Assembly: GCA_022729705.1 (NCBI GenBank)
Contig: DZAX01000017.1
Span: 1-44,460 of the forward strand
Source: Helicobacter cetorum
Lineage (GTDB): Bacteria; Campylobacterota; Campylobacteria; Campylobacterales; UBA6016
Length of the DNA: 44,460 nt
Reading direction: 5' to 3'
A model generated the notes under the pieces. That model was not told the origin of the DNA. It saw nothing but the letters and a program-made list of their open reading frames with translations, and ran no database searches. The translations under genes were made by a program, and so were the position numbers. Numbering within the stretch: position 1 is the stretch's first letter; each line of letters starts with the position of its first letter. Below are positions 407-7,128 of this stretch, in pieces.

Positions 407-875
407 ATGACTAAAACAGAGGCTCTATCAATCCTTAAAAACCACAAGAGCGATTTTGCCGCTCGTTACGGTGAAAATGGGTGTCAGGCACTCTTTCGCT
501 CTTTCGGTGAAAATGGGTGTTGCGAAATGGGTGTCAGGCACTCTTTTATGTAGGCACTCTTTTATGCATTTTCTTATTTTTTTCTTAATTTCATTCTTTT
601 CTTTTTTTCTACTTGCTTTAAAAAACCGCCAACCGCCAACCGGAAAAATGGGTGTCAGACACTCTTTTATGAGAGACGAGGCGAATGAGGCTAGTGATAT
701 GGATGTGTTTTATGAGAGGGATAGTGGGTTTGAGCTTGAGAGCGGGCTGGAGTTTTTGCGTTTGTCGGATGAATTAGCAGATGAGCTTCATGTGCCAAAA
801 GTTGACTTTGTGGTGCTCAAATATATGAACCCGATAGTAAAATACTATGCTAAAAAGGATTTTATCTATGTATAA
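407..875 (+). pseudogene. Broken MntA-type nucleotidyltransferase antitoxin gene, interrupted by repeats
   Basis: The start at 407 encodes MTKTEALSILKN...FAARYG, a typical beginning of minimal nucleotidyltransferases of the MntA/MNT family. This frame runs into repeat sequence near 474 and stops at 551-553. The remainder of the protein resumes near 672 in another frame: RDEANEASDMDVFYERD, then a C-terminal part ending KKDFIYV at 875. Intact family members have about ten residues here containing the GS of the GSx9DxD nucleotide-binding motif. They are absent and replaced by about 200 bases of AT-rich, repeat-bearing sequence. The DxD half (SDMDV) survives. MntA enzymes normally neutralise HepT by adenylylating a tyrosine, so this copy should be inactive. 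A frame open from 456 to 875 could still make a chimeric protein. Confidence 0.75.
474..671 (+). repeat. Cluster of AAAATGGGTGTCAGGCACTC short repeats inside mntA
   Basis: Copies with the core TGGGTGTCAGGCACTCTTTT start at about 474, 524 and 645, with partial copies near 509 (AAAATGGGTGT) and 551 (AGGCACTCTTTTATG). The copy at 645 reads GTGTCAGACAC, a perfect odd-length palindrome. The others read GTGTCAGGCAC, which pairs with one T-G wobble. Between copies lies a T-rich run (about 567-620) and a small tandem repeat of AACCGCC (about 625-640). Short palindromic repeats of this kind often accompany REP-associated tyrosine transposases (RAYTs), but no transposase gene lies in this window, so that link is inference. 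Confidence 0.7.
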
Positions 876-1293
876 AGAGCAAAATCTGATTTTTATTTTT
901 ACGATGTTGGAGTGTGTGGAGAAGTGCGGCATTTATACGGATGGTTTTACAAATCCGCATGAGTTTGTTTGGGCTGACGAGCAGATGAGGCTCAATGCCG
1001 TAATACCGCTATTCATAGCCATAGGCGAAGAGTCCAAAAAAATAGACCAAAATTTCAAAGACGATATAAAAACAAAGCCCAACTGGTCGGATGTGGCGGG
1101 TATGAGAGACAAAATATCGCATGATTATCGTGGTATGGATGCCGAGATACTATGGGCTGTAATCCAAAAAGACCTACCGAAACTCAAAAAAGCCCTCTTG
1201 GAAATACTAGAACTCATCAAGCCCTCACGAGAGCTGATGGATGAATTTTTGGATTCGCAGTTTTACAAACATCTAGCGTATTTGAAGAGCTAG
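868..1293 (+). CDS. HepT-like toxin (DUF86 family RNase)
   Basis: I place the start at ATG 868, which overlaps the stop of the broken mntA frame in ATGTATAA, the usual coupling in mntA-hepT pairs. An in-frame codon at 847 is possible but less natural. The 141-residue product is helical and carries RDKISHDY about two thirds along. This matches the Rx4HxY motif of HepT, a HEPN RNase in which R and H are catalytic and Y is the residue adenylylated by MntA. No frameshift or internal stop is visible, so the toxin gene looks intact although its antitoxin is broken. HepT proteins cleave RNA in the cytoplasm. Whether this copy is active or silenced is unknown. Confidence 0.8.
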   Translation: MYKEQNLIFIFTMLECVEKCGIYTDGFTNPHEFVWADEQMRLNAVIPLFIAIGEESKKIDQNFKDDIKTKPNWSDVAGMRDKISHDYRGMDAEILWAVIQKDLPKLKKALLEILELIKPSRELMDEFLDSQFYKHLAYLKS

Positions 1294-1594: not shown

Positions 1595-1767
1595 CAAGTT
1601 CACACAAGTTCACAAGTTCATATATTGCTTCAGCTTCTTCACGTTTTATGCTCAACAAAGAGCAATTTTAGTTCCGTTTTTGGTGGGTAGGTGAGTGGTT
1701 ACGATTTTTTTCACATTTATTTTCTTTTTTAATTTGATAAACACGCTATTTTATTTTAAAGCCGCTT

Positions 1768-6996: not shown

Positions 6997-7128
6997 GTCT
7001 TCAGCAGACGGCTCTCGCGGCTTGCCGCTCTCTCCCGCCTTCGGCGGGCAGCTTCAGGGGGTTGCAAGGGACATTTATGTCCCTGCCGTTAACAGGGGCT
7101 TTGCTCGTGTTAACGTATATCATCAAAT
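6997..7128 (+). repeat. Modular hairpin element, copy 1 (full)
   Basis: The copy begins TCTTCAGCAGACGGCTCTCG. Hairpin 0 is GCGGC-tt-GCCGC (about 7017-7028). Hairpin 1 is CCCGCC-ttc-GGCGGG (7034-7048), followed by CAGC and TTCAGGGGG. Hairpin 2 is AGGGACATTTATGTCCCT (7067-7084), then GCC. Hairpin 3 has arms GTTAACA and TGTTAAC around GGGGC-ttt-GCTC (7088-7114). The tail is GTATATCATCAAATG. A similar imperfect GGC-AAA-GCC palindrome lies at 6975-6993. The array sits between the converging ends of dnaJ and the GGDEF gene. Confidence 0.8.

Follow-up and report, generated by a model that had tools for sequence, protein, structure and literature searches.

The window analysed here is the whole of contig C41, 44,460 nucleotides long, in a 75-contig draft genome of 2.19 Mb from Helicobacter cetorum, and close to one contig end it carries a hepT toxin gene preceded by remnants of mntA antitoxin genes and by an array of short repeats. 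The features of this region are the following:

2-406, + strand: gene X, truncated on the 5' side so that its 3' portion remains, a partial paralogue of a frame on contig C40
407-472, + strand: 5' stub of a type-B mntA, 22 codons (MTKTEALSILKNHKSDFAARYG), matching the mntA-B of genome G002 and of our genome's contig C67
473-671, + strand: repeat array of 199 bp with three 26-nt copies, in place of the stretch with the GS motif
479-493, + strand: repeat core GGGTGTCAGGCACTC, copy 1, exact match
529-543, + strand: repeat core, copy 2, a terminator-like hairpin followed by TTTT
650-664, + strand: repeat core, copy 3, one mismatch, terminator-like
672-875, + strand: 3' stub of a type-A mntA, 67 codons (RDEANE...FIYV), DXD kept and GS absent
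855-859, + strand: AAGGA, candidate ribosome-binding site of hepT
868-1293, + strand: hepT-A, the toxin gene, with a PF01934 match and a 5yep-like predicted fold
1573-1587, + strand: repeat core, copy 4, downstream of hepT, a sequence match

Gene X matched no Pfam family; its residues 36-113 share 88% amino acid identity with C40:15107-15340 (89.7% of nucleotides over 203 bases), where the paralogue is an open frame of 273 aa.

The first-pass annotation had described an intact hepT beside an mntA split by repeats, and the toxin part of that description was confirmed. The hepT frame is open over all of its 141 codons, and its product scored 54.9 bits against PF01934 (cut-off 23.5) in profile searches and only 28.3 bits against the NCBIfam HepT model, below that model's cut-off of 60. 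The RX4HXY motif is kept as RDKISHDY (R80, H85 and Y87), its R, H and Y being invariant across the 24 HepT sequences compared. Fold comparison of the AlphaFold model (mean pLDDT 89) gave the Shewanella HepT complex 5yep as the nearest PDB entry, followed by 6m6u, with a probability of 1.00, a TM of 0.57-0.61 and a weak E-value for 5yep; sequence searches of solved structures with HepT gave no useful match. As in its relatives, the hepT start overlaps the stop of the type-A mntA (ATGTATAA). The AAGGA site, 8 nt before the hepT ATG, falls inside the codons for KKDFIYV, which are conserved among orthologues, and because this site is kept hepT could be translated. Most HepT relatives found belong to the Campylobacterota, and a place of the organism in the Campylobacterales is accordingly very probable. 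The nearest genomes compared, G001 and G002, are of the same genus, and the G001 counterpart of HepT shares 81% of its amino acids; the G001 MntA, which has the same sequence as the one in Helicobacteraceae bacterium UBA6016 (L140), is intact, unlike that of the window. By eye, the surroundings also differ, with a CoiA-like gene upstream and a sulfhydrylase downstream in G001, and ComEC- and DnaB-like genes in the window.

Further downstream, at 1356-1445, a short frame (MKLQTSVRVDEGFYNDSKKVFDAFGLSFG) resembles, on inspection by eye, the beginning of an antitoxin of the RelB/DinJ type and then breaks off; neither Pfam nor NCBIfam supported that identity, which we did not retain.

As for the antitoxin, the loss of the GS stretch and the gain of some 200 bases of repeat-bearing DNA stood up, and so did the open chimeric frame at 456-875. 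What did not hold is the idea of one interrupted gene. The 5' piece (407-472) matched G002 mntA-B (L128:1048-1107) at 86.7% of nucleotides over 60 positions (E 2e-14) and the mntA-B on contig C67 of the same genome (L048:1588-1654) at 79% over 67 nt, while just 33 of its 66 positions agree with G001 mntA-A, the normal partner of this HepT. The 3' piece belongs to the type-A module: 672-1272 aligned ungapped with G001 (L064:1305-1905) at 83.2% over 601 nt, the match starting exactly at 672, where the repeat array stops, and 60 of the 67 residues of the mntA-A remnant are identical to G001 MntA. Intact type-B MntA reads MTKSQALSILENHK.DF..., as against MTK..II.YLK.KK.E.. in type A. Since the two flanks come from different mntA genes, the apparently split mntA is, on nucleotide comparison, a patchwork of type-B and type-A pieces, and given the type-B identity of the 5' piece, a single insertion into one mntA no longer serves as the simple account. 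At the array site 11 codons of an intact type-A mntA are missing and the codons preceding them are likewise not type A, so that the remnant lacks GS and the first 33 codons of the intact antitoxin; the DXD of GSX10DXD persists as SDMD. The neighbouring MNT protein with GSX10DXD that characterises a working HepT/MntA pair is thus not found here.

The core GGGTGTCAGGCACTC occurs four times in the window (at 479, 529, 650 and 1573), against none expected from shuffled sequence, and the 26-nt copies of the array lie at 475-500, 525-550 and 646-671. Parts of the array recur on contig C17, with 98.9% identity between 552-642 and C17:1495-1585 and 95.7% between 524-640 and C17:850-964. Genome-wide, about 73 copies of AAATGGGTGTCAGGCACTCTTT were counted when as many as three mismatches were allowed, as against 0 in the reversed control; G001 has two matches with one mismatch each, and 58 further relatives gave no match. 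This genome-wide nature of the repeat, like the involvement of two mntA genes, was missed by the first-pass annotation. The copies form one-way clusters, chiefly on C17 (at C17:102-8228, for example, all are on the + strand). Among them lies a Y1 transposase gene (C17:7143-7478) whose product scored 65 bits against Y1_Tnp, over the cut-off, and resembles REP-associated tyrosine transposases, with 72.3 bits against NF047646 where the cut-off is 80.

The family therefore invites comparison with REP elements and their RAYT/TnpAREP transposases (PMC8266576). It is like them in its high copy number, the 73 copies in this genome being short and able to form hairpins; the Y1 transposase amid the copies on C17 resembles theirs, which makes it at most a candidate for acting on this repeat. 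Unlike them, it carries no GTAG tag before its palindrome (GTAG lies within 15 nt 5' of the repeat in 0 of 75 copies), its hairpin is weak (-2.1 kcal/mol, z -1.9), and a non-exhaustive search for inverted REP/iREP pairs (BIMEs) found clusters nearly all in one orientation. We did not file the repeat as a REP element because of these three departures, and strict membership was dropped; a literature search showed no paper carrying its sequence among those listed.

Several other arrangements accompany the repeat. Its edges are partly duplicated, for example at 1003-1043 and 7031-7064 of the C17 locus L043 and at 1544-1590 of the window: 9-mers spanning the left edge turn up again within 50 nt at 16 of the 75 copies, where 0.04 would be expected, and those spanning the right edge at 11 of 75 (0.06 expected), for which slippage or nested insertion would be our guesses. 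In L043, 1-8230 holds about 20 same-orientation copies alternating with the Y1 transposase and with very small genes, in pairs, whose products look like membrane proteins, giving the array a cassette-like look. Beside the first repeat and near contig ends a second element recurs, with GGTGGGTAGGTGAGTGGTTACG (or GGTGGTGAATGGTTAC) at its end (window 1613-1709 and 40-60, L043 6452-6548, and the starts of C17 and C19), and a third, short and palindromic (GGGGGTCAGACCCC), recurs in the C17 array at L043 661-680, 2281-2310 and 4014-4035. On C19 (L044 500-680, - strand), a nucleotidyltransferase fragment starts at a repeat copy, just before the GS motif (MFGSRTNGTAKPYSDVDL), and is joined to a lipoprotein-like frame that follows it; its intact relative lies at L048:2652-3014.

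Repeats of this kind could also mislead an assembler, and the middle of the array might join two loci that are not neighbours in the genome. The longest exact match of the array within the selected own-genome loci compared is 68 nt (551-618, against C17), over which an assembly could have crossed, and the window is a whole contig with the site close to its end. Against such a misjoin, both breaks, at 472 and 671, fall outside 551-618, and repeat copy 3, at the type-A break, has a mismatch of its own. We consider an artefact unlikely, and because both breaks lie outside the 68-nt match, hepT-A would be left without a GS-bearing mntA either way.

We then set the locus against its relatives. Within the order, GSX10DXD is present in 17 of the 17 MntA proteins adjoining a related HepT. 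Single-sequence search of a second genome collection confirmed no HepT homologues, and an alignment-based search of the same collection retrieved 53 related HepT loci, 49 of them with an upstream GS-DXD protein. The four others are L165, cut by a contig edge, L192, in which HepT is matched only in part, and L156 and L180. At L156 (1772-2405), an internal loss took the GS stretch and shifted the frame, and the HepT C-terminus is altered; the frame opened by the native mntA start now closes after 13 codons, no start codon lies near the 5' end of the DXD part, and that genome holds no other NTP_transf_2 match. At L180 (1826-2414), HepT is intact and the whole stretch ahead of DXD has given way to unrelated sequence. 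These two cases show that other lineages, if rarely, also have a hepT next to an mntA without GS. What bears on the suggestion, made at first reading, that the host tolerates the toxin is that two other lineages carry the same combination. In the window, L156 and L180 alike, the break falls between GS and DXD, at about codons 34-41.

The closest characterised system is SO_3166/SO_3165 of Shewanella oneidensis (type VII, PMC7641770), which the window resembles in its HEPN toxin with RX4HXY, in the overlap of the upstream MNT gene with the toxin start and in the predicted fold closest to 5yep. It departs from that system in its antitoxin, a remnant without GS and the first 33 codons, accompanied by a stub of another mntA type. 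In Shewanella, changing GS to AT in MntA abolishes HepT modification, and binding by itself does not suffice for neutralisation of the toxin (PMC7641770). The expectation that an active HepT without an AMPylating antitoxin should be harmful is thereby borne out in its premise, there being no GSX10DXD in cis and no modification once GS is changed: judged by what is known from Shewanella, the usual means of holding HepT in check is not available at this locus.

This leaves the question of whether the remnant could still restrain the toxin, as the first-pass annotation had proposed for the chimeric frame. The mntA-A half, started from an ATG supplied by repeat copy 3 (at 648 or 669, both in frame with the remnant, giving 75 or 68 aa), might bind and hold HepT without adenylylating it, an idea that draws on the open frame at 456-875, the preserved overlap of mntA stop and hepT start, and the DXD-to-end half retained next to hepT in two other genomes. 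Shewanella catalytic-site mutants of MntA also still bind HepT, with neutralisation described as reduced (PMC7641770), although binding was not enough there. About one third of the domain is missing, no ribosome-binding site precedes ATG 648 or 669, and V43M, I45V and H91Y have changed in the window lineage, where close outgroups keep V/I, I and H; the startless DXD part of L156, behind a native start that soon stops, also speaks against this reading, which we regard as quite improbable. More broadly, the GS half has been lost at least three times (window, L156 and L180), and the DXD half may persist as a small non-catalytic antitoxin or as a translational lead-in through which HepT stays tolerable; we give this wider proposal very little credence. 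If it were true, a type VII module would have turned binding-only in some lineages.

Nor does help from elsewhere in the genome seem probable. The suggestion that another nucleotidyltransferase acts in trans was not upheld, since a genome search with intact type-A MntA returned just its own remnant and the MntA of C67 (40% identity); together with the PF01909 profile, which gave nine further nucleotidyltransferase matches, it found no second intact cognate mntA-A. The C67 module (L048 1590-2238) is a mirror image of the window, its MntA-B intact with GSVARDEATENSDVD and its HepT-B interrupted by a TAA some 24 codons in. One toxin lacking its antitoxin and one antitoxin lacking its toxin, of different types, are thus present in the genome. 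MntA-B, freed from its own toxin, could conceivably neutralise the orphan HepT-A, but at 40% identity between the two antitoxins and about 32% between HepT-B and HepT-A such cross-protection is unsupported, and we hold it to be very unlikely.

The toxin gene itself shows signs of past selection and of recent drift. Against G001, dN/dS (NG86) is 0.12 for hepT and 0.05 for the mntA remnant, and these values are low, so that purifying selection acted over most of the divergence between the two genomes. Polarisation with outgroups, however, gave HepT 13 derived residues on the window side and 4 on the G001 side, against 18 and 24 in FliF (Fisher p = 0.024, the excess resting on 17 HepT changes). 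At sites invariant among the outgroups, the window and G001 have 4 and 0 changes in HepT and 4 and 3 in FliF. Two of the window's HepT residues are prolines: P47, where 23 relatives carry S, T or N and which sits in the middle of predicted helix 36-56 of the AlphaFold model, and P71, where 23 relatives carry hydrophobic residues. For the mntA remnant, three derived changes fall to the window and one to G001. These small counts agree with a recent loosening of constraint in the window lineage.

Consensus scans of the region ahead of hepT, whose matches do not imply activity, found terminator-like sites (a hairpin and TTTT on the coding strand) at 529 and 650 and no promoter-like match on the + strand from 181 to 868. 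Of the ways out offered at first reading, a silent or weak toxin is accordingly the one with most on its side, the substitution excess, the two prolines, the terminator-like repeats and the promoter scan all pointing towards it, though silence and weakness stay predictions from sequence.

Taken together, these data are probably best read as a type VII (HEPN/MNT) toxin-antitoxin locus in which decay has struck the antitoxin first and hepT is silent or weak. What remains, 22 type-B codons, 199 bp of repeats, and 67 type-A codons with hepT, would be the product of a rearrangement at a repeat that is specific to this genome and present in many copies. With the GS half of the antitoxin gone, a working adenylyltransferase would no longer be made at the locus. 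The survival of hepT as an open frame is most likely owed to low expression or to a weakened product, in keeping with the replacement of the region upstream of the gene, the terminator-like repeat copies now ahead of it and the unusual substitutions in its protein. Either a B/A hybrid mntA came first and was later invaded by repeats, or DNA was lost between repeats in two neighbouring modules, welding them together; tandem HepT/MntA modules occur in relatives (L075, L076 and L077). The meeting of the two remnants with an 11-codon gap leans towards the hybrid-gene order without being decisive, and the order of events, like low expression and weakened toxicity, is our inference. Against decay, RX4HXY is intact and hepT has a dN/dS of 0.12, so that HepT may still work; AAGGA is retained before the gene, the substitution excess amounts to 17 changes, the terminator and promoter matches come from consensus scans, and the sequence is a draft assembly of 75 contigs.

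Orphan toxins of decayed toxin-antitoxin loci are widespread in surveys of MAGs, with 16 orphan type VII toxins reported in one marine set (e.g. PMC12654330, PMC10790755). The window toxin is like these in having no working cognate antitoxin and unlike them in that what is left of the antitoxin genes, and the repeat at the break-point, can still be seen. The locus is thus ordinary in kind, a visible stage of toxin-antitoxin decay, and offers an example, placed by comparison, of a type VII module in which the antitoxin goes before the toxin; two parallels arose independently. It illustrates that fragments of different antitoxin genes, joined by a repeat family, can pass for a single split gene, and it makes testable whether HepT without adenylylation is truly intolerable in nature or usually silent.
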